Source: Chryseobacterium ginsenosidimutans (GTDB taxonomy: Bacteria > Bacteroidota > Bacteroidia > Flavobacteriales > Weeksellaceae). Taken from it: a stretch of 64,000 nucleotides of DNA. Both the position numbers and the translations under genes were made by a program. The stretch spans positions 2,773,001 through 2,837,000 of the forward strand of contig NZ_JAUSXC010000001.1 in assembly GCF_030823405.1 (NCBI RefSeq). The letters run 5' to 3'. Below are positions 4,669 through 52,751 of the stretch, piece by piece. The notes under the pieces were generated by a model that was not told the DNA's origin, did no database searches, and saw only the letters and a program-made list of their open reading frames with translations. Within the stretch, counting starts at the first letter, position 1, and each line of letters starts with the position of its first letter.

Positions 4669-5490
4669 ATGAGTACACTACGATTAAAAGACGGGACAGA
4701 AATTTTTTACAAAGATCAGGGAAAAGGACAAGTATTAATGTTTCACCACGGATGGCCATTATCCTCGGATGATTGGGATGCGCAGGTTATCTTTTTCTTA
4801 CAGAAAGGCTATAGAGTTGTAACGCATGACAGAAGAGGTCACGGAAGATCAAGTCAGGATATCTACGGTCACAATATTGAACAATATGCTTCTGATGCAG
4901 CCGAACTGGTAGAATTTCTTGACCTGAAAGATGTTGTTCACATCGGACACTCAACAGGAGGTGGTGAAGTAATCCGTTATGTAAATAAATATGCCAACGG
5001 AAGAGCAAAAAAAGCAGTATTGATCAGTGCCGTTCCGCCGATTATGGTAGCTAGCGAAAGCAATCCTGATGGTGTACCGATGGAGGTTTTCGACAACATC
5101 AGAGACCAGACTTTGAACAACAGACAGCAGTTTTATATCGACTTGACTTTCCCTTTCTACGGTTACAACAGAGAAGGTGCAAAAGTGAAAGAAGGGATAC
5201 AGAGAAACTGGTGGAGACAGGGAATGATGGGCGGAATCGTGGCTCATTACGAAGGTATCAAAGCTTTTTCTGAAACTGATTTCAGAGAGGATTTAAAAGC
5301 GGTTGATATTCCTGTTTTGGTTCTTCACGGAGAAGATGATCAGATTGTTCCTTATCAGAATGCTGCTTTAAAATCAATTAAATTATTGAAAAACGGAACA
5401 ATAAAAACTTATCCGGGTTTCCCTCACGGAATGCCGACGACGGAAGCGGAGACCATTAATAAAGATCTTTTGGAGTTTATCCAGTCATAA
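4669..5490 (+). CDS. alpha/beta hydrolase, non-heme haloperoxidase-like (copy 1)
   Basis: A 273-residue cytoplasmic alpha/beta hydrolase of the cofactor-free haloperoxidase/esterase group. The catalytic triad is visible as Ser95 in GHSTGG, Asp224 in GEDDQIVP and His253 in GFPHGMPTT; HHGWPL near residue 26 forms the oxyanion region. It lies between infC and rpmI, which are normally adjacent, with its own candidate promoter and a terminator on each side. It differs from the gene at 62928 at only 10 of 273 residues, mostly conservative and clustered at the C-terminus, while the flanks are unrelated. This points to duplication and insertion into the ribosomal locus. The true substrate is unknown; peroxidase activity in this family is often incidental to esterase or lactonase activity. 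Confidence 0.88.
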   Translation: MSTLRLKDGTEIFYKDQGKGQVLMFHHGWPLSSDDWDAQVIFFLQKGYRVVTHDRRGHGRSSQDIYGHNIEQYASDAAELVEFLDLKDVVHIGHSTGGGEVIRYVNKYANGRAKKAVLISAVPPIMVASESNPDGVPMEVFDNIRDQTLNNRQQFYIDLTFPFYGYNREGAKVKEGIQRNWWRQGMMGGIVAHYEGIKAFSETDFREDLKAVDIPVLVLHGEDDQIVPYQNAALKSIKLLKNGTIKTYPGFPHGMPTTEAETINKDLLEFIQS

Positions 5491-5504
5491 TTCTACTTAT
5501 ATAA

Positions 5505-5545
5505 AATAAACTGCGTACGATATTTTCCGATCGCAGTTTATTTTA
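5505..5545 (+). terminator. candidate terminator after hydrolase copy 1
   Basis: AATAAACTGCG (5505-5515) pairs perfectly with CGCAGTTTATT (5532-5542), followed by a short T-rich stretch. The T run is weak. Confidence 0.5.
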
Positions 5546-5638
5546 AACAATCTTATTGGGGTTTTCTTTAAAAAACATTAGATGTTTTTACTTTTTCTTT
5601 GTCTTGAGAATTTCCTTTCAGGTCTCATTTTTTTTCCG

Positions 5639-5646
5639 TATTTTTG
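5639..5646 (+). promoter_or_regulatory. rpmI-rplT -7 element TATTTTTG
   Basis: TATTTTTG matches TAnnTTTG; a TTTC 19 bp upstream is a weak -33 element. The predicted leader of about 65 nt carries the hairpin listed next. Confidence 0.55.
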
Positions 5647-5656
5647 CAAACTATTA

Positions 5657-5677
5657 TTCCTAAAATATCGTTAGGAA
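5657..5677 (+). promoter_or_regulatory. leader hairpin upstream of rpmI
   Basis: TTCCTAA and TTAGGAA form a perfect 7-bp stem with a 7-nt loop in the 5' UTR of rpmI-rplT. A ribosomal-protein (L20) autoregulatory site is one possibility; no known leader family is recognised. Confidence 0.4.
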
Positions 5678-5719
5678 ACCAGTACAGATATTGATAACAA
5701 AATAATAAAAAGCAAAACA

Positions 5720-5917
5720 ATGCCAAAATTAAAAACGAAATCAGGTGCTAAAAAGCGTTTTAAACTTACCGGAACAGGAAAGATTAAAAGAAAAAATGCT
5801 TTCAAAAGCCACATTTTGACAAAAAAGGAAACTAAGCAAAAGAGAAATCTTACGCAAACTTCTTATGTTGCAAAAGTGGACGAAAAAAGCGTTATGCGTC
5901 AATTAGCAATTAAGTAG
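5720..5917 (+). CDS. rpmI: 50S ribosomal protein bL35
   Basis: The 65-residue basic protein [20 protein letters not shown] onward matches bL35 in length and sequence. It is a structural protein of the large subunit. It is followed after 121 nt by rplT, its usual partner. It is separated from infC by the inserted hydrolase gene and has its own promoter. Confidence 0.96.
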
Positions 5918-6038
5918 TTTTTATAAATCTATATTCGGTTTATAAGAATTCAAAAAATTCAAAAATTTCAACCCTGAAATGGAGCAACTAAGTGTAATGA
6001 AACAGTTTACCGCACATTTCAAAAAAACAATTTAAATT

Positions 6039-6383
6039 ATGCCAAGATCAGTAAATGCAGTAGCTTCTAGAGCTCGCAGAAAAAAATTAATGAAACAAGC
6101 TAAAGGTTTTTTCGGTAGAAGAAAGAACGTTTGGACTGTAGCTAAAAACGCCGTGGAAAAAGCAATGCAATATGCTTACCGTGGTAGAAAAGAGAAAAAG
6201 AGAAACTTCAGATCACTTTGGATCACTCGTATTAACGCGGGAGCTAGAGTACATGGAATGTCTTACTCTCAGTTTATGGGAGCTCTTAAAAAGAACAACA
6301 TCGAATTAAACAGAAAAGTTTTAGCAGATTTAGCAATGAATCACCCTGAAGCTTTCAAAGCTGTTGTTGATCAAGTAAAATAA
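6039..6383 (+). CDS. rplT: 50S ribosomal protein bL20
   Basis: This 114-residue basic protein begins [20 protein letters not shown] and matches bL20, an early 23S rRNA-binding assembly protein that in other bacteria also represses its own operon by binding mRNA. Its long Lys/Arg-rich N-terminal helix and globular C-terminal domain are intact. A strong terminator follows 24 nt after the stop. Confidence 0.97.
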
Positions 6384-6484: not shown

Positions 6485-7657
6485 GTGAAAAAATTAACTA
6501 CTTTTCTATTTCTTTCATTAGCAACTTATAGCTTACAGGCCCAAAGTCTTATTCAGGCATATAAAAACAGAGCAGATCAGGTTTCACAAACCAATATCAC
6601 TACTCTTTTACAGGATTTTGAAAATCTGGGTGTAAAAACTACCGGCTCTACGGCTAATACAAATGCTTTAAACTGGCTGAAAGCAAAATATCAATCTTAT
6701 GGATACACTGCAAGCCAGATCACGGAAGATTCTTTCACAGGAAACAATAATACAAGTTCTAAAAATTTAATTATAACTAAAACAGGAACAGTTTATCCCA
6801 ATATATACGTCATTATTTGCGGGCATTATGATACAATTGTAGGTCCCGGAGTAAGTGATAACGGAAGCGGAACGTCAATTATTCTGGAAGCTGCGAGAAT
6901 TTTAAAAGATATTCCGACAGAATATTCCATCAAATTCATTAATTTCTCGGGGGAAGAACAAGGATTATTGGGTAGTAATCATTATGCAAATAATGTTGTT
7001 TTCCAAAACGGAACGCGCCAGCTGAATGTACGACTGGTGTTTAATATTGATCAGGTTGGAGGAAAGCTGGGAAATGTAAATACTGCTATAAAATGCGAAA
7101 GCGATCAAAGTGGTCAAACAGGAAATAATGCTGCTTCACTTTCATTTACACAGCAATTAGCGAATTGTACAGCATTGTATTCAACTTTGCAAACTGTAAT
7201 GTCTAATGCATATTCATCAGATTATATGCCTTTTGAAGCTAACGGAGACATTATTACGGGGTTTTATGAAAATGAAAGAAGTTACAATGAACATACGGTA
7301 AATGACACTTTTGCTAATGTAGATCCAACCTATGTATTTAATGTAGGAAAAGCGGCTGTCGGAGCATTACAGCATTTTGCAGTGGCAACAAGTTTTTTAA
7401 GCACAAATGAACAGGTTGCAAATACTTTGGAATCTATAAAAATCTATCCAAACCCGGCAAAAGATTTCTTGAATATCGAACTTCCTAAAGATGTTAAAAA
7501 CTTCAATCTCGAAATCACTGATTTGAATGGCCGTTTGGTTTTAAATAAAGAAAATGAAACGAAAATAAATGTTTCCGGTTTGGTGAATGGTGCTTATTTA
7601 TGTACAGTAAAAGCAAATGATAAAATTGCAGTAAGAAAAATAATTATCGGTAAATAA
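6485..7657 (+). CDS. secreted M28-family zinc metallopeptidase with T9SS sorting domain
   Basis: The GTG at 6485 starts an ordinary signal peptide (to about LQAQ, residue 20); upstream TTG/ATG starts would lie in or next to the promoter. The 390-residue product has an M28 aminopeptidase core with zinc ligands His114 (CGHYDT), Asp125, Glu158 in GEEQG, Asp189 (NIDQ) and His270 (NEHT). From about residue 316 follows a type A C-terminal sorting domain (IKIYPNPAKDFLNIEL to KIIIGK), which routes proteins through the type IX secretion system. The enzyme should act outside the cell or on its surface, cleaving peptides. The next gene is a paralogue lacking this tail. Confidence 0.9.
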   Translation: MKKLTTFLFLSLATYSLQAQSLIQAYKNRADQVSQTNITTLLQDFENLGVKTTGSTANTNALNWLKAKYQSYGYTASQITEDSFTGNNNTSSKNLIITKTGTVYPNIYVIICGHYDTIVGPGVSDNGSGTSIILEAARILKDIPTEYSIKFINFSGEEQGLLGSNHYANNVVFQNGTRQLNVRLVFNIDQVGGKLGNVNTAIKCESDQSGQTGNNAASLSFTQQLANCTALYSTLQTVMSNAYSSDYMPFEANGDIITGFYENERSYNEHTVNDTFANVDPTYVFNVGKAAVGALQHFAVATSFLSTNEQVANTLESIKIYPNPAKDFLNIELPKDVKNFNLEITDLNGRLVLNKENETKINVSGLVNGAYLCTVKANDKIAVRKIIIGK

Positions 7658-7675
7658 TATTAAAATAAAACAGAT

Positions 7676-7709
7676 ATAGAAATCCTGAGTATTTGCTCAG
7701 GATTTCTAT
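7676..7709 (+). terminator. perfect 14-bp hairpin between the two M28 genes
   Basis: ATAGAAATCCTGAG and CTCAGGATTTCTAT pair perfectly around TATTTG. There is no long T run, but the position 18 nt after the stop fits termination. The loop TTTG doubles as the -33 element for the next gene. Confidence 0.7.
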
Positions 7710-44278: not shown

Positions 44279-45838
44279 TTAATCCAGATAACGTTTCAGA
44301 TCGGAAATAGTTTTTATCTTAAGCTGTTCCGATTGTTTTTTACGCATCATTAAGGCATAAGAATTATTAAATCCTAAAGGCTGTAACCATTCAATCCCAT
44401 ATTGCTTTTGAAATTCGGAATTGACATAATCATAGGTGCTTTCAGCATTTTTGGATACCCTTGAAATTATATTTTGGTCGGCTTTTAATAAAACTAAAAG
44501 CCCCGTTCCTGTATATTCAGGGTAAAAATCAATGGCGTCGTTCATCAAGGCATCAAAACATATCTTCGTTCCGCCCAAACCGGTTTTTGTTTCGACTTTA
44601 TAATTTGTGTAACCTTCGATCAACATTTTATAAATTTCAGTGAGAATATATTGTTCACCAAAAATCTTTGAGCCAATTCTTACCGTTCCGGAATTTCCGT
44701 TTTGTGGAATCTTGTATAATTTATTTTTAATTAAAAAATCTTTTGCAATTTTTTCGGGTGTTTTATTCAGATAATCTGATTGGTAATTGAGATCAGTCAT
44801 TATCGAATCATTGAATTTCCCTGCCAACAGATCAAGCGTCTTCTCCAGTTCAGGGAATTTCTGTAATGTTTTTGTTTTCATAATCGGTGCAGCAAAATAG
44901 GGTGGAAATATTTTTTTATCATCTACCAAAACGTAAAGATCAAAAGCTTTGATCCTGCCATCTGTAGAATATCCGCTTATCAGATCAAGCTCGCCTTCAT
45001 AAGCGGCTTTGTACATAATGGCATCATTGACAACTTTCGGGTTTACATTTAATCCATAAACAGAACGCAAGCCGAGATCGCCATCCTGTCTACCCATAAA
45101 TTCTGGTGTAAAACCTGCCTGTAATTTATTATCAGATTTAGAATTAAACCAATAACCTGCGCCAATAATCATAAAAATAACAGGGAAAATGTACCAGAAT
45201 TTACGGATGTCCTGATATTTTATTTTTTGAAAAACAGCAATCAGTTTATCCAGCAAAACAGCCAGTAACGCCGCAGGAATGGCTCCCGCCAAGATCATAT
45301 TGGTATTATTCAGGGAAATCCCACCAAAAATAAATTCGCCCAAGCCACCCGCCGCAACAAATGAAGCTAATGTAGCAACTCCAACATTGATGACCGCTGC
45401 AGTTCGTATCCCTGCAATGATGACAGGCATCGCCAAAGGAAGTTCAACCTTGAAAAGCAATTGTTTCCGGTTCATTCCCATTGCTTTTGCCGCTTCGATC
45501 ACAGCCGGATTCACTCCTGTAATTCCTGTGTATGTATTTCGGATGATTGGTAAAAGGGCATAGATCAGTAAGGCTACAATTGCCGGAGTCGCACCAATAC
45601 CGAAAGCAGGAATCATAAATCCCAAAAGAGCAATGCTTGGAATGGTCTGTAAAATTCCTGCAACTCCCAATACAGATCCTGATAATTTTCGTTTTCTCGC
45701 GATGAGAACACCCAGCGGCAAACCGACAATAATTGCTAAAAGTAATGACAAAAATGTAAGCTCCAAATGTTGAGTAATTTGGGCTAATAATTTTTCATGC
45801 TGTTCAGAAACAAACTGCCAAAGACTTTGCTGTGTCAT
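44279..45838 (-). CDS. ABC permease fused to a (permuted) QAT-type substrate-binding domain; candidate ergothioneine transporter EgtU
   Basis: The 519-residue protein has an OpuCB-like permease (residues 1-205; EAAKAMGMNRKQLLFKVELP is the ATPase-coupling EAA loop), a seventh hydrophobic span (about 214-231), and then an OpuCC/QAT-type binding domain. The halves of that domain are swapped: GFTPEFMGRQDG to DFLIKNKLYKI (residues 242-377), normally C-terminal, precede VRIGSKIFGEQYILTEIYK to SDLKRYLD (386-519), normally N-terminal. It overlaps its ATPase gene by 4 nt and ends an operon starting with egtD and egtB. The fused layout recalls the EgtUV ergothioneine importer, so ergothioneine or its precursor hercynine is the favoured ligand; glycine betaine or choline remain possible. 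Confidence 0.8.
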   Translation of the reverse strand: MTQQSLWQFVSEQHEKLLAQITQHLELTFLSLLLAIIVGLPLGVLIARKRKLSGSVLGVAGILQTIPSIALLGFMIPAFGIGATPAIVALLIYALLPIIRNTYTGITGVNPAVIEAAKAMGMNRKQLLFKVELPLAMPVIIAGIRTAAVINVGVATLASFVAAGGLGEFIFGGISLNNTNMILAGAIPAALLAVLLDKLIAVFQKIKYQDIRKFWYIFPVIFMIIGAGYWFNSKSDNKLQAGFTPEFMGRQDGDLGLRSVYGLNVNPKVVNDAIMYKAAYEGELDLISGYSTDGRIKAFDLYVLVDDKKIFPPYFAAPIMKTKTLQKFPELEKTLDLLAGKFNDSIMTDLNYQSDYLNKTPEKIAKDFLIKNKLYKIPQNGNSGTVRIGSKIFGEQYILTEIYKMLIEGYTNYKVETKTGLGGTKICFDALMNDAIDFYPEYTGTGLLVLLKADQNIISRVSKNAESTYDYVNSEFQKQYGIEWLQPLGFNNSYALMMRKKQSEQLKIKTISDLKRYLD

Positions 45839-46743
45839 GCGATCTGTAATTTTCTGTAATCATTGAAGGCTTTTACCATTTTTTCGTAATCATCCGTACG
45901 TTGTTGATCTGAGCTTAATTTCTGTAAAATATTCCAAATAGTAGAATCTTCCGGAAAATCATTTTCAAAATCAGAAAGAAAAGGCAACAGGTCTTTTAAA
46001 ACAGTAATTTTATATTCTAATAAGAGTCGGTTGGCAGAAAAAAATTCTTTAACGAAATCATTTTTTTGATGATAAAGCATTTCTTTTGGTGTCCCGGTCT
46101 GGATGATTTTCCCCTTATCCATCAAACAAATCCGATGCCCCAGCTCAAAAGCTTCCTGCACATCGTGAGTGACAAGAATTGTCGTTTTATTTTTTAATTC
46201 TTCTAAAGATTTGAATTCTGAATGAATATCAGCTTTGGTAATATTGTCTAATGCTCCAAACGGTTCATCCATCAATAAAATCGGAGAATTGGCAATCAAT
46301 GCTCTGGCAATTCCTACTCTTTGCTGTTGGCCGCCGCTTAATTCATCAGGAAAACGGGAAAGAATATCTGTTGAAAGACTGAGTTTGTTTAAAAGTTCTT
46401 CCGTTCGGTTCTCAGTTTTCTTTTTGTTCCATTTCAGCAATTTGGGAATAGTTGCAATATTTTCTCTGATTGTGTAATGTGGGAACAATCCGGAATTCTG
46501 CATCACAAAACCAATTCCCATCCGAAGATCTTCTACTTTATGCTCCCGGATATTTTTTCCATTAATCAAAATATTTCCGGAATCTGCTTCTATGAGTCTG
46601 TTGATCATTTTGAGGGTTGTCGTTTTTCCGCAACCACTCGTTCCCAACAGTACCAAAATTTCCTTATCATTTGCCTGAAAAGAAATATCATCTACCGCTG
46701 ATCTTCCGCCAAAATTTTTAGAAACCGATTCAACTGTAATCAT
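45835..46743 (-). CDS. ABC transporter ATP-binding subunit (OpuCA/EgtV-like)
   Basis: The 302-residue ATPase has Walker A GTSGCGKTT (residues 34-42), Q-loop near 82, signature LSGGQQQR (135-142) and Walker B ILLMDEP (155-161). The C-terminal 60 residues lack the paired CBS domains of many osmolyte transporters, fitting a non-osmotic role. Its stop overlaps the start of the permease-binding protein by 4 nt, and egtB ends 5 nt upstream. It powers uptake of the fused permease's substrate. Confidence 0.88.
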   Translation of the reverse strand: MITVESVSKNFGGRSAVDDISFQANDKEILVLLGTSGCGKTTTLKMINRLIEADSGNILINGKNIREHKVEDLRMGIGFVMQNSGLFPHYTIRENIATIPKLLKWNKKKTENRTEELLNKLSLSTDILSRFPDELSGGQQQRVGIARALIANSPILLMDEPFGALDNITKADIHSEFKSLEELKNKTTILVTHDVQEAFELGHRICLMDKGKIIQTGTPKEMLYHQKNDFVKEFFSANRLLLEYKITVLKDLLPFLSDFENDFPEDSTIWNILQKLSSDQQRTDDYEKMVKAFNDYRKLQIA

Positions 46744-46748
46744 AGAAA

Positions 46749-47939
46749 TTATTTAGCCAAACGGATTCCTGTGAATTGCCACTGCAGATTAGTCGGAAAA
46801 AAATTACGGTAGGTATTCCTGCTGTGACCGACAGGAGTCGCTACTGAAGCACCACGAAGAACGGTTTGGTTGACCATAAATTTTCCATTATATTCACCAA
46901 CTGCACCTGCTTCTTTTTTAAATCCCGGATATGGTAAATAGGCAGAATTTGTCCATTCCCAACGTTTTCCCCAATCGAAATGGTGTGATGCGGCTTCCCA
47001 TTCAGCTTCGGTTGGCAATCTCATTCCTTTCCATGATGCAAAAGCTGAAGCCTCAAAAAAATTGACATGGCAAAGCGGTTGATCAAGATTAATTTCCTGT
47101 AAACCATTTAATGTATAATGCATCCATTCTCCATCGATTAAATGCCAGTATAAAGGAGATTTCATACTATTCTGTTTCACCCAATCCCAACCTTCGGCAT
47201 GCCAATGTCTGAAATCTGAATAGCCTTCAGCTTTCATAAATTCCAGATATTCTCCGTTAGTTACAAGTTGATCAGAAATTTGAAAATCATTCAGATAAAC
47301 CTTGTGTCTTCCCAATTCGTTATCAAAACAAAAACCTTCGCCCTCAAAACCTATTTCATAAATTCCTTCTGAAAATTCAATCATTTTTGAAGGAAAAACA
47401 GATTCACTATGTTCAATATTTTCTTTTTTATAAACAGGGAAAAGTGGATTGTGTCCCAAAATATATTTGATATCTGTCATCAATAATTCCTGATGCTGTT
47501 GCTCGTGATTTAAACCTAATTCCAATAATGGCTCAATGCTTTCATTCATAGAATGACTTTGAAGAAAATCCTGCATTTTTTCATCTACATATTTTCGGTA
47601 TTTATAAATATCCGAAACAGAAGGCCTGCTCAAATTCCCTCTGTCTGTGCGGATCACTCTTGCACCAACGGTTTCGTAATAACTGTTGAATACAAAATTA
47701 TACTGCTTATCAAAAACTTCATAATCCGGAACATTAGGAATCAAAATAAAAGTTTCAAAAAACCAGGTAGTATGGCCCAAATGCCATTTAGGCGGGCTTA
47801 CATCAATAATTGGCTGTACTACATAATCTTCTATTTCTAAAGGTTCACAGATATCTACCGAATGCTGACGGATCTGTGAATATATCTTTGTCCAATCTTT
47901 CACAGAATTAGATATTGTTATTACTGAATTTGCTTTCAT
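46749..47939 (-). CDS. egtB: EgtB-like ergothioneine sulfoxide synthase
   Basis: EgtB is a non-heme iron enzyme joining hercynine to a cysteine thiol (cysteine or gamma-glutamylcysteine) with oxygen. From ATG 47939 the protein has 396 residues: an N-terminal DinB-like four-helix domain with the iron ligands His56 (HLGHTTWFFETF) and His145/His149 (NHEQQHQEL), then a C-terminal formylglycine-generating-enzyme-like domain (RLPTEAEWEAA, TGIRLAK). A longer start at 47987 would overlap egtD. It lies 14 nt after egtD. No EgtC is present, so a direct cysteine donor is plausible. Confidence 0.92.
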   Translation of the reverse strand: MKANSVITISNSVKDWTKIYSQIRQHSVDICEPLEIEDYVVQPIIDVSPPKWHLGHTTWFFETFILIPNVPDYEVFDKQYNFVFNSYYETVGARVIRTDRGNLSRPSVSDIYKYRKYVDEKMQDFLQSHSMNESIEPLLELGLNHEQQHQELLMTDIKYILGHNPLFPVYKKENIEHSESVFPSKMIEFSEGIYEIGFEGEGFCFDNELGRHKVYLNDFQISDQLVTNGEYLEFMKAEGYSDFRHWHAEGWDWVKQNSMKSPLYWHLIDGEWMHYTLNGLQEINLDQPLCHVNFFEASAFASWKGMRLPTEAEWEAASHHFDWGKRWEWTNSAYLPYPGFKKEAGAVGEYNGKFMVNQTVLRGASVATPVGHSRNTYRNFFPTNLQWQFTGIRLAK

Positions 47940-47953
47940 TTTGGTAATTTTAA

Positions 47954-48937
47954 TTATAAAACCTGCCACACGGAGTCCACAAACCAATTTTTGGAATCGC
48001 TAATTTCGTTCAACAGATGAAATCCGGAATTATTGGCCATATTTGTGATATCACTTTTTGAGAACTTCTGAGAAATTTCCATTTCGATAAATTCGTTTTC
48101 CTCAAAATTAATAATATCGTGATCTATATGAACTTCCTGTTTTATAAGACTTATAAGAAAACTGCGGCAAGAACCTGAAATAGGATCGTATGTCTGATAA
48201 TGCTGAAAATTTTCAACATTAAAATCAGCTTTTAATTCACGGTTTATTCTTGTAAGAAGATTGAGATTGAATGCTGATGTAATTCCTGTTTCATCATTAT
48301 ATGCATTTAAAATGGTATGCGGGTTTTTCTTCAAATCAAAACCGATTAAAAAAAGGTCACCAAGATTCAGCTTTCTTTTGACTTCGCGGCAGAAATGATG
48401 AGCTTCTTCAATATCCATATTGCCAATATTCCCACCTAAAAAAAGCACTACTTTTCTTCTTTTGGAAATACCTGTAGCTTTATCAAGCATATCAAAATAT
48501 TCGCCTTCTAAGGATACAATGTCTAATGTTGGAAGCTCAGTATTCAGTTTATCTTTAAGAACTGACAAGATATTCCCCGAAATATCGATCGGCATATAAG
48601 TGAAATCGGCCTTGCTTTCAATAAGATTTTTTAGCAGATATGATGATTTCATTGCATCACCGGCTCCCAACTCTATGATATCAAACGGAGATTGATCAAA
48701 TGTAATTGCATCTGCAATCTCCTGAGTTTTATTTTTGAAGATATCTAATTCGCAATCGGTAAGATAATACTCCGGTATCTTCATGATCTTCTGAAAAAGG
48801 CGGTCTCCGATTTTGTCATAAAAATATTTTGACAACAACCGTTTAGGGCTATTTTTTAAACCATCTAAAACATCTGATCGGAAACTGTCGACCTGAGAAT
48901 TTTCTATTTGAGAATCTTTACCTAACTGTAACTTCAT
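47954..48937 (-). CDS. egtD: L-histidine N-alpha-methyltransferase
   Basis: EgtD trimethylates histidine to hercynine using S-adenosylmethionine, the first step of ergothioneine synthesis. The 327-residue protein carries SKYFYDKIGDRLFQKIMKIPEYYLT (family N-terminus, residues 36-60), the SAM loop IELGAGDAMKSS (88-99) and FLGGNIGNMD. It is the first gene of egtD-egtB-ATPase-permease, read away from a sigma-54 activator gene across a 201-bp gap. Confidence 0.93.
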   Translation of the reverse strand: MKLQLGKDSQIENSQVDSFRSDVLDGLKNSPKRLLSKYFYDKIGDRLFQKIMKIPEYYLTDCELDIFKNKTQEIADAITFDQSPFDIIELGAGDAMKSSYLLKNLIESKADFTYMPIDISGNILSVLKDKLNTELPTLDIVSLEGEYFDMLDKATGISKRRKVVLFLGGNIGNMDIEEAHHFCREVKRKLNLGDLFLIGFDLKKNPHTILNAYNDETGITSAFNLNLLTRINRELKADFNVENFQHYQTYDPISGSCRSFLISLIKQEVHIDHDIINFEENEFIEMEISQKFSKSDITNMANNSGFHLLNEISDSKNWFVDSVWQVL

Positions 48938-49138: not shown

Positions 49139-50710
49139 ATGAATAAACAATCTGATAACAATACGGAAATAATGAAACGACTGCAAAACATGCAGAAAGA
49201 ACAGCTTATTATTTCAGTTTTCAATAAAGCCCTGTCGAAAATCTTGGATAAAAAGCAATTTCAACTTGTTTTAAATCAATTTTTAAAAAGTGAAATAAAA
49301 TTTGATGAACTTGTAATTTTAAGTATTGATGAAAATAATAATGAATCTGAGATTTTTCATCATACTTTTATTAATAATAGTTTACAAAACAAAGGTTCAA
49401 AGTTAATTGATAGTCAATTGGATAAATGCTTGAAATCAGCAGAACCAATATTTTTTGATCTGAAAAACTCCATCCCTTTCTATTTTCTTGACTCCAAAAA
49501 TGTAGGAATGAGAACTGCAATCGGGTTTTGTCTGCCATTAATTCAGGAAAAAACCAATATTATTTTCTTTTTTTATAAAGATTATATACAAATTGATGAA
49601 AAATTAGAAAGAATATTGGCTGGTATTTCGACACAATTATCAATAACAATCAGAAATATTATTTTAACTGAAAAGTTTGAAAATCTCAAAGTATCCAGTT
49701 CAAATTTTCAAGATGAAAACAAAGAGATTCAGCCCATAAAAAGCCAAAATGATTTTTATGGCATTATAGGTAATAGTGAACCTATGCTGAAAATTTATGA
49801 AAAGATATCTCAGGTAGCACCTTCAGAATCCAATGTTCTCATCTATGGCGAAACGGGTACAGGAAAAGAATTGGCAGCACAGGCAATTCACGATCTGTCA
49901 TCATCGGCACACAAAAAAATGGTCAGGATAAACTGTGCAGCCATCCCTGCAAATCTTATAGAATCTGAGCTTTTCGGGCATGAAAAAGGAAGTTTTACTG
50001 GTGCAACTGAGCAACGTACGGGAAAATTTGAACAGGCAAATAACAGCACTATTTTTCTGGACGAGATCGGCGAACTTCCTCTTGAACTTCAGGGAAGACT
50101 GCTGAGGGTTTTACAGGAAAAAGAAATCGAACGGATCGGCGGAAACAAGCGCATTAAAGTAAATGTAAGAATTATTGCTGCTACCAACAGGAATCTTGAA
50201 AAGGAAGTGGTAGAAGGAAATTTCAGAAGTGATCTTTTTTACCGCCTGAATGTATTTCCTATCCATCTTCCCGCTTTACGAGACAGAAAAGAGGATATTC
50301 CGTTGCTTGCGAATTATTTTCTTGAAAAACATCATTTAAAAACAGGTAAAAAAATCAAAGGCTTTTCTCAAAAAGTGATAAATGAAATGTACGGAAATCC
50401 GTGGCCGGGAAATATCCGAGAATTGGAAAATATGATTGAAAGAAGCATGCTGACGGCAAAAGAAAACATTATCAAGGAAATTGAATTTTCAAAAAGTATC
50501 TCTCTACAAAATAAAGATCAGGAATTTCAGATCAAAACGCTGCAACAAATGGAAAAAGAATATATTTTAAAAGTAGTTGAAAAATGCAGCGGCAGGATTT
50601 CCGGAAAACAGGGAGCTGCTGTTTTATTGGGATTGCCTGCTACAACTCTGATTTCAAAAATGCAGAAACTTGGGATAAAAAAAGGACATTATTTTAAGGA
50701 AAAAGAATAA
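49139..50710 (+). CDS. sigma-54-dependent activator with GAF-like sensor domain
   Basis: The 523-residue protein has an N-terminal domain of GAF-like size and pattern (about residues 20-180). The AAA+ domain has Walker A GETGTGKE near 238, the sigma-54-contacting GSFTGA loop near 284 and FLDEIGE as Walker B. The C-terminus is a Fis-type helix-turn-helix (GKQGAAVLLGLPATTLISKMQKLG). It should open RpoN promoters in response to a small signal. It is divergent from the egt operon and convergent with the TMEM175-like gene. Its AAA+ domain closely resembles that of the response regulator at 51399. Confidence 0.9.
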   Translation: MNKQSDNNTEIMKRLQNMQKEQLIISVFNKALSKILDKKQFQLVLNQFLKSEIKFDELVILSIDENNNESEIFHHTFINNSLQNKGSKLIDSQLDKCLKSAEPIFFDLKNSIPFYFLDSKNVGMRTAIGFCLPLIQEKTNIIFFFYKDYIQIDEKLERILAGISTQLSITIRNIILTEKFENLKVSSSNFQDENKEIQPIKSQNDFYGIIGNSEPMLKIYEKISQVAPSESNVLIYGETGTGKELAAQAIHDLSSSAHKKMVRINCAAIPANLIESELFGHEKGSFTGATEQRTGKFEQANNSTIFLDEIGELPLELQGRLLRVLQEKEIERIGGNKRIKVNVRIIAATNRNLEKEVVEGNFRSDLFYRLNVFPIHLPALRDRKEDIPLLANYFLEKHHLKTGKKIKGFSQKVINEMYGNPWPGNIRELENMIERSMLTAKENIIKEIEFSKSISLQNKDQEFQIKTLQQMEKEYILKVVEKCSGRISGKQGAAVLLGLPATTLISKMQKLGIKKGHYFKEKE

Positions 50711-51398: not shown

Positions 51399-52751
51399 TT
51401 ATTGATAACCTTTATCAATTCCTAATTTTTTCATTTTAGAATATAATGTTTGAGGTTGTATTTTCAGCAGTTCTGCTGCACCACCGATTCCTGAAACTTT
51501 TCCTCCACAACTTTGCAGTACATTCATAATGTGTTCTCTCTCCATTTCTTCCATTGATTTCAATTGTACTTGAGATTCAGTTGAAGCTTTTTTTATTATT
51601 TTCGGAAGATCAAAACTTTCAATTTCTGTAGTTTTGGCTAAAAGCACACTTCTTTCAATAAGATGTTCCAGTTCACGGATATTCCCGGGCCAACTGTAGT
51701 TGTAGAGCTGTTCCAGAGCACTTTTACTGATTGAATCAATATTTCTTCTTGAAGCTGCCGTATATTTATTAAGAAAAAAATTAGCTAATAGTTCAATGTC
51801 TTCTTTTCTTTCTCTTAAAGGAGGTAATTCTATCGGGAACACATTTAATCTGTAATATAAATCCAATCTAAACCGTCCTTCTGCCACTTCTTTTTCCAGA
51901 GAGCGGTTGGTAGCTGCTACGATTCTTACATTCACTTTAAGCGTTTTATTACCTCCTAATCTTTCGATTTCTTTTTCCTGTAAAACTCTTAGCAATTTCA
52001 CTTGAGAATCCAACGGTAATTCACCGATTTCATCTAAAAATACCGTCCCTCCATTTGCCTGTTCAAACTTGCCGATTCTCATGACATTCGCTCCTGTAAA
52101 GCTTCCTTTTTCATGCCCGAAAAGCTCAGATTCAATCAATGAATGTGGTAAAGCAGCACAGTTTACAATCACGATCGGACTGTTACTTCTATCGGAAAGG
52201 TCGTGTACAGAATGGGCCACTTTTTCTTTCCCTGTACCACTTTCTCCGATGACAAGAACGGAAGTATCTGTTGGCGCAACGACTCTTACTTTTTCAATAA
52301 CGTCCTGAAGTAACGGACTTTTGCCTATAATTCCTTCTATTTCTTCGTGAATCTCAGATCCCTGAAACTCAGATTTTTTTTCAATATCAAAACGGTATTT
52401 TGCAATATCAAGCATTACGATGAGATCACGTTCCCGAAAAGGTTTCACCATAAATCCGTAAGGCTGTGTTTCCTTTACAGATTCCAATGTAGATTGGTTG
52501 GTGTTGGCAGAAATATAGAGAAAAGGTATATTTTTCTTACGCAATTCCCACGCAAGATCAATTCCGGTAAGATCCCCTTTCAGCATAATATCCAAAAGTA
52601 CCCAATCCGGTTTTTTTTCTTCAATAGATTTTCTTGCCTGTACAACGGAAGACGCAATTCCCGTGACCTGATACCCTGCTTTTATCAGCATGATTTTAAG
52701 ATCATTGGCTACAATAAATTCATCTTCTACAATTAATATTTTTTCTTTCAT
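51399..52751 (-). CDS. NtrC-type response regulator (receiver, sigma-54 AAA+, Fis HTH)
   Basis: The 450-residue protein has a receiver domain with acidic pocket Glu9/Asp10/Glu11, phospho-acceptor Asp54 (VLLDIML) and Lys103. AAA+ motifs follow: GESGTGKE (169-176), GSFTGA and FLDEIGE. The C-terminal helix-turn-helix is GIGGAAELLKIQPQTLYSKMKKLG. It follows the histidine kinase gene by 23 nt, so the two form a two-component system activating RpoN-dependent genes. Targets are unknown; the operon it belongs to is the first candidate. Confidence 0.92.
   Translation of the reverse strand: MKEKILIVEDEFIVANDLKIMLIKAGYQVTGIASSVVQARKSIEEKKPDWVLLDIMLKGDLTGIDLAWELRKKNIPFLYISANTNQSTLESVKETQPYGFMVKPFRERDLIVMLDIAKYRFDIEKKSEFQGSEIHEEIEGIIGKSPLLQDVIEKVRVVAPTDTSVLVIGESGTGKEKVAHSVHDLSDRSNSPIVIVNCAALPHSLIESELFGHEKGSFTGANVMRIGKFEQANGGTVFLDEIGELPLDSQVKLLRVLQEKEIERLGGNKTLKVNVRIVAATNRSLEKEVAEGRFRLDLYYRLNVFPIELPPLRERKEDIELLANFFLNKYTAASRRNIDSISKSALEQLYNYSWPGNIRELEHLIERSVLLAKTTEIESFDLPKIIKKASTESQVQLKSMEEMEREHIMNVLQSCGGKVSGIGGAAELLKIQPQTLYSKMKKLGIDKGYQ

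Follow-up and report, generated by a model that had tools for sequence, protein, structure and literature searches.

The window analysed here, a stretch of 64,000 nucleotides from Chryseobacterium ginsenosidimutans (contig NZ_JAUSXC010000001.1, positions 2,773,001 to 2,837,000), contains a four-gene operon in which the ergothioneine synthesis genes egtD and egtB are followed by the ATPase and the permease/substrate-binding fusion of an ATP-binding cassette (ABC) importer. The synthesis pair is ordinary and the importer is unusual, as its binding domain is, judged from its sequence, circularly permuted. With a rough probability of 0.57, we consider that the operon makes ergothioneine and that its own importer most likely recaptures this compound, or perhaps hercynine. 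EgtD would trimethylate histidine, EgtB would couple a cysteine-type sulfur donor to hercynine, and a type I ABC importer encoded in the same operon, belonging to the class of EgtU and Archaeoglobus fulgidus ProX (AfProX), would take back ergothioneine, and perhaps also its precursor hercynine, from the periplasm. We infer the ligand, the direction of import and the recapture role, and ergothioneine recapture is the best guess because of the gene context. The operon itself is real: its four genes share the minus strand and are spaced by gaps of 14 and 5 nucleotides, the last pair overlapping by 4 nucleotides, a layout reported in the first-pass annotation of the window and confirmed from the coordinates:

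47954..48937, minus strand: egtD, histidine N-alpha-methyltransferase, 327 amino acids
46749..47939, minus strand: egtB, sulfoxide synthase, 396 amino acids counted from the ATG at 47939
45835..46743, minus strand: ABC ATPase of the ProV type, with a score below the proV cut-off, 302 amino acids
44279..45838, minus strand: fusion of a permease and a circularly permuted substrate-binding domain, 519 amino acids

The activities proposed for EgtD and EgtB are those of their families, and the profile and PDB matches support the earlier assignment of the pair to ergothioneine synthesis. EgtD matches the Pfam family Methyltransf_33 and has an EgtD as its top PDB match, with a TIGR03438 score of 283.2 as opposed to the curated cut-off of 290.9. 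EgtB, for which the open reading frame list gives a longer frame starting at an upstream TTG at 47987, scored 539.5 with TIGR03440, over the equivalog cut-off of 360, and its closest solved relatives in the PDB sequence search are chains of Cabther EgtB, which we take to be a cysteine-using type II enzyme. In the importer ATPase, the domain search found ABC_tran and reported no CBS domain, as the first-pass annotation had also stated, so that the osmosensing feature of OpuA/ProU is lacking. The fusion protein contains BPD_transp_1 (residues 39-211) and a Pfam OpuAC match that is split into two stretches.

The linkage of the importer to the synthesis genes is conserved. It was followed in overlapping samples of genomes from the family (197), the order (395) and the phylum (395), and in a named set consisting of the best 80 of 580 relatives, which is biased to close kin. 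Three architectures were distinguished among the fetched loci: a permease followed by a canonical binding domain (class A; 4 of 4 fetched, all from the family), a permease followed by a permuted domain as in the window (class B; 27 loci), and a canonical domain first with the permease last (class C; all 20 of the two-piece phylum loci that were fetched, an assignment that covers 20 of the 31 two-piece phylum genomes). Permuted matches in one span were found in 33 of the family genomes, searched with the full-length protein, and in 27 of the order and 22 of the phylum genomes, and domain matches in two swapped pieces in 3 genomes of the order sample and 31 of the phylum sample (two showing one piece only); G191, whose importer piece has only 47 residues, was excluded from the counts. 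Among the class C loci (L120-L139), several have a signal-peptide-like start and L129 a lipobox pattern; in L125, the permease match extends beyond the listed frame.

In the family sample, egtB is present in 65 of 197 genomes, comprising 33 of the 33 importer genomes versus 32 of the 164 others, and in every one of the 33 egtB is within 3 kb of the importer. None of the 197 family genomes keeps the permuted importer without egtB, and 9 of the 14 family genomes with a canonical class A importer have egtB. In the phylum sample, egtB was found in 19 of 22 genomes with a permuted importer, in 25 of 31 with a two-piece match and in 68 of 342 others. P values for these associations take no account of relatedness among the genomes and serve as description only. 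The first-pass annotation had called a bacterium that both makes and imports ergothioneine unusual, which is too strong in view of the 19 of 22; the lack of a conserved neighbourhood, which it had named as an outcome speaking against its proposal, was not what we found. At the 80 named loci, egtB stands alongside the importer in 77, egtD only in one and neither in two, and those three carry egtB elsewhere. The fetched stretches contain egtB and/or egtD at 17 of the 27 permuted loci, at 5 of 20 class C loci (both genes nearby) and at 0 of 4 class A loci. Gene order varies among lineages while the linkage persists: egtD-egtB-ATPase-permease in 30 and ATPase-permease-egtB-egtD in 42 of the 80 named loci, egtD-ATPase-permease-egtB in L109, and egtD-oxidoreductase-ATPase-permease-egtB in L066. 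Conversely, egtD and egtB occur without the importer at 12 loci from egtB-bearing family genomes that lack it (L240-L251). One of these, L244, holds a stump of the importer ATPase of 133 amino acids behind egtB (7296-7697, plus strand) and no permease match in the stretch; here, the importer was apparently lost and synthesis retained, so that loss of the importer can leave synthesis in place. Homologs of egtBD in Bacteroidota have already been reported in silico (PMC11722985); in the open-licence PMC literature, judged by titles, abstract beginnings and selected passages, we found no report linking egtDB to this importer, nor a permuted domain of this class.

Compared with EgtU, AfProX and OpuBC, the two halves of the binding domain are swapped, so that the permease is followed by the C-terminal half and the N-terminal half ends the protein:

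45206..45811, minus strand: permease domain, about residues 10-211 (BPD_transp_1 at 39-211; residues 17-200 match the OpuA permease)
44714..45133, minus strand: binding domain, original C-terminal half now first, residues 236-375, corresponding to EgtUC construct 136-275
44678..44713, minus strand: new linker from the former C terminus to the former N terminus, approximately residues 376-387 (best rotation cut 369-387)
44291..44677, minus strand: binding domain, original N-terminal half now last, residues 388-516, corresponding to EgtUC construct 10-134

The swapped order of the two OpuAC stretches was missed in the first-pass annotation, which had described the same fused permease-binding layout as in EgtUV. 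In the PDB search, the binding domain matched Streptococcus pneumoniae EgtUC (SpEgtUC) best, aligning as two swapped blocks. When the domain was rotated, the alignment score rose from 343 to 529 for SpEgtUC, from 196 to 373 for AfProX (1sw1) and from 221 to 371 for PDB 8dp6, an “Osmoprotection protein” that is presumably the Helicobacter pylori EgtU domain, as opposed to shuffled controls (200 per reference), which scored at most 56 against SpEgtUC and at most 68 against any reference. After rotation, the identity is 42.7% to SpEgtUC over 260 aligned residues, 37.7% to AfProX and 35.7% to 8dp6. The new chain break falls near residue 364 in SpEgtU numbering (offset 229, derived from matching residues named in PMC9732360), within lobe D2, which comprises residues 341-432 (PMC9732360). 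Assembly error or chance as the cause of the swapped order was ruled out by its recurrence in the overlapping family, order and phylum samples and in 80 of 80 named loci, in all of which the importer fusion is open in a single frame. No duplicated intermediate was seen among the listed order and phylum matches, whose open frames measure 409-729 amino acids; the longest, and the only one with room for a permease plus two binding domains, is an ATPase fusion (L069:5592-7775, minus strand), a chain of 727 amino acids containing permease, canonical binding domain and ATPase.

An AlphaFold2 model of the fusion protein, computed as a single monomer from an alignment of 37 relatives, reached a mean predicted local distance difference test score (pLDDT) of 80.3 and a predicted template modelling score of 0.60. 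In this model, the permuted domain is predicted to adopt the two-lobed fold of a binding protein, its chain running in the order of OpuA/OpuAC, and would combine this order with an EgtU/AfProX-like sequence. Foldseek aligned the whole chain with Lactococcus lactis OpuA (7ahd) over 523 columns at 17% identity (template modelling (TM) score 0.49, root mean square deviation 8.7) and the domain with Bacillus subtilis OpuAC (2b4m) at a TM score of 0.71 by target length and 13% identity. EgtUC was aligned over only about 140 columns (about 46% identity), as is expected because the domain is permuted. An alternative in which the swapped halves represent a swapped dimer or a non-binding remnant instead of a working single domain draws on the fact that the model is one predicted monomer whose permease part is less confident, with residues 162-177 and 232-236 below a pLDDT of 50. 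However, the binding domain has a pLDDT of 78-97 (ten-residue block means from residue 241 onward) and its predicted two lobes match OpuAC, the pocket residues from both halves are invariant in the 37 aligned sequences (48-88% identity to the window), and every named locus is open in one frame, so that we regard this alternative as very improbable.

The binding domain of OpuA likewise stands behind the permease. Identity to OpuA and OpuAC is nevertheless only 12-17% over the binding domain, as opposed to 29-30% in permease-only alignments, and their cage is built from Trp rather than Tyr (PMC9732360). OpuAC and AfProX have been published as circular permutants of each other (PMC2395249). Treponema pallidum MglB-2 is also a natural circularly permuted binding protein, but it belongs to another fold cluster, binds glucose and is a lipoprotein (PMC4990184).

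The phylogenetic trees contained 40 permuted sequences (that of the window plus 25 of the 27 loci and 14 of the 80 named ones), 19 of the 20 class C sequences, 4 of class A and 3 others; L062, L101 and L125 were omitted due to an incomplete frame and L267 because it gave no domain matches. The domain trees were built from halves restored to canonical order, and splits were read without re-rooting. Class B formed a single clade of 40 with a support of 99, and 96 once reference proteins were added, class C one clade of 19 with a support of 100, and class A joined 8dp6 and a Fusobacterium protein in a group with a support of 100; 8dp6 is also the best match of L067, a canonical class A locus from the family. 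In the permease tree, class B was not recovered as one clade, so the case for a single origin comes from the binding domain alone. Permuted forms outside Bacteroidota were not established: among the 30 listed of 387 plasmid records with a match, the best one as well as all 18 with at least 77% coverage were two-piece, and the named set covered the best 80 of 580 relatives.

In the ligand pocket, the window keeps K242, I243, T275, T296, N339, Y341, E375, R379, Y419 and Y443 in SpEgtU numbering and differs from SpEgtUC by G244 to F, T274 to G, F293 to Y and Y337 to F. The aromatic cage, the carboxylate clamp and E375 of EgtU are thus present, with Y in place of F293. Cage, clamp and Glu (window K391, T445, R250, E246, N492, Y494, Y290 and Y314) are kept in 20 of 20 permuted sequences, and position 337 is F in the alignment of all 20. 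Where mappable, classes B and C have a common AfProX-like pattern, positions 242-244 being unmapped in 9 of the 20 class C sequences. The cage together with the lysine-arginine clamp makes a trimethylammonium carboxylate the probable ligand. EgtU of S. pneumoniae and other Firmicutes shares the ATPase and permease-binding fusion, the cage, the K/T/R clamp and the Glu, but has a canonical domain and is described for non-producers (PMC9732360), whereas the window importer adjoins synthesis genes. The protein in 8dp6 is of the same class and in canonical order; at the positions of window E246 and Y290 it carries D and F. H. pylori EgtUV has been reported to take up ergothioneine (PMC9732360, PMC11722985). 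Since 8dp6 is also without G244 and F293, with S and Y there, the pocket residues do not separate ergothioneine, hercynine and glycine betaine.

Several results weigh against ergothioneine as the ligand. G244 and the Y-to-F switch at F293 are the specificity determinants of EgtU, and G244F lowers the affinity of SpEgtUC about 100-fold (PMC9732360); in the 20 permuted sequences mapped, position 244 is F (16) or Q (4) and position 293 is Y in all. The pocket is identical to that of AfProX at 12 of 14 positions, AfProX differing solely at I243 (P; window I392) and N339 (D; window N492), although it has the canonical order and its solved chain is the binding protein alone. The EgtUV-like transporter proposed in the first-pass annotation is supported by the best sequence match, to EgtUC, but not by the ligand residues, as the window shares F at position 244 and Y at position 293 with AfProX. 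Among the domain sequences, the tree places the three EgtU sequences in a separate clade (support 100); a grouping of class B with EgtU is absent, and the permuted clade pairs weakly with AfProX (support 74), close to the clustering with betaine or choline binders that the annotation had set against its own proposal. In addition, EgtU is presented as the ergothioneine supply of cells unable to make it (PMC9732360), 3 of the 22 phylum genomes with a permuted importer are without egtB at an E-value of 1e-40, and 10 of the 27 permuted loci have neither egtB nor egtD in the fetched stretch (L062 being cut by a contig end).

The resemblance to the glycine betaine binder AfProX in pocket and tree, together with these 10 loci, would suit a general glycine or proline betaine osmoprotectant importer merely travelling with egtDB. 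The genome has only one other OpuAC match, a weak one (22.4 bits at a cut-off of 21.2), so the importer of the window may be the only one of its class. On the other hand, the linkage to egtDB survives several gene orders and two protein architectures, egtB accompanies the importer in all 33 family genomes, and the ATPase is without a CBS domain, which together make an osmoprotectant role unlikely in our view.

A further possibility is that the importer takes up hercynine, leaked or released by neighbours, to feed EgtB, and not finished ergothioneine. The linkage to both egtD and egtB is compatible with this, and at two loci (L118 and L119) egtD persists close to the importer although no egtB was detected in the genome. 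We know of no hercynine-specific binding protein, which counts against it, and hercynine is made inside because egtD is in the same operon. The F at EgtU G244, near the water network at the thioimidazole ring, might suit a sulfur-free ligand, but the binding of hercynine by SpEgtUC is no better than millimolar (PMC9732360). Uptake of hercynine alone is rated as improbable, slightly more so than the betaine importer. For ergothioneine recapture, the balance is that the tree appears to lean weakly to a betaine binder and the gene context favours an ergothioneine-pathway betaine. By chain order, specificity residues and tree position, all read from sequence, the importer is not EgtU; judged by gene context, it probably works like it.

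Accessory genes near the cluster vary. Upstream of the ATPase, 43 of the 80 named loci carry a gene for a pyridine-nucleotide-disulfide oxidoreductase, as do L066 and L101-L108 among the 27. An example is the flavoprotein disulfide oxidoreductase at L103:11056-12444 (minus strand), as found in Pedobacter, Mucilaginibacter and others. The protein reached the cut-off of none of the NCBI models listed, the nearest being “FAD-containing oxidoreductase”; we suggest a putative role in reducing ergothioneine disulfide. The genome of the window has only relatives with 34% and 31% identity. A relative lies beside egtB-egtD at L256:4544-5920 (plus strand), with a permuted importer elsewhere in the genome, and on a Liquorilactobacillus nagelii plasmid (L265:2299-6121) a permease/substrate-binding protein, an ATPase and an NAD(P)/FAD-dependent oxidoreductase similar to this one are consecutive. 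DUF427 genes (PF04248) were seen at 32 of the 80 named loci and also occur beside egtB/egtD or the importer, whether the importer is present or not (L113:6311-6592, L118:5897-6385, L226, L228, L230); no joint mention of DUF427 and ergothioneine was found in the open-licence PMC literature. In L066, a fused methionine sulfoxide reductase (PMSR and SelR; 5135-6103, minus strand) adjoins the egt/importer cluster. Upstream of egtD in the window, a search for a simple Bacteroidetes-type promoter pattern gave no match, and two genes resemble NtrC-type regulators by eye (49139-50710, plus strand, divergent from egtD; 51399-52751, minus strand).

Taken further, and at what we would put short of even odds, the permuted EgtU/ProX-class domain may have arisen once in Bacteroidota, converged on the OpuA order and joined the producer's unit for making and recapturing ergothioneine, with re-reduction by the flavoprotein disulfide reductase of the operon in relatives of the Pedobacter/Mucilaginibacter type. 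The fusion offers a natural test of permutation in a fused ABC importer, in which nearly the same pocket is tethered to the permease via the other lobe. It is also a caution that ergothioneine and betaine importers are not told apart by pocket motifs alone. If recapture is true, ergothioneine importers would extend from scavengers to producers, which would suggest that bacteria guard a costly antioxidant by taking it back.

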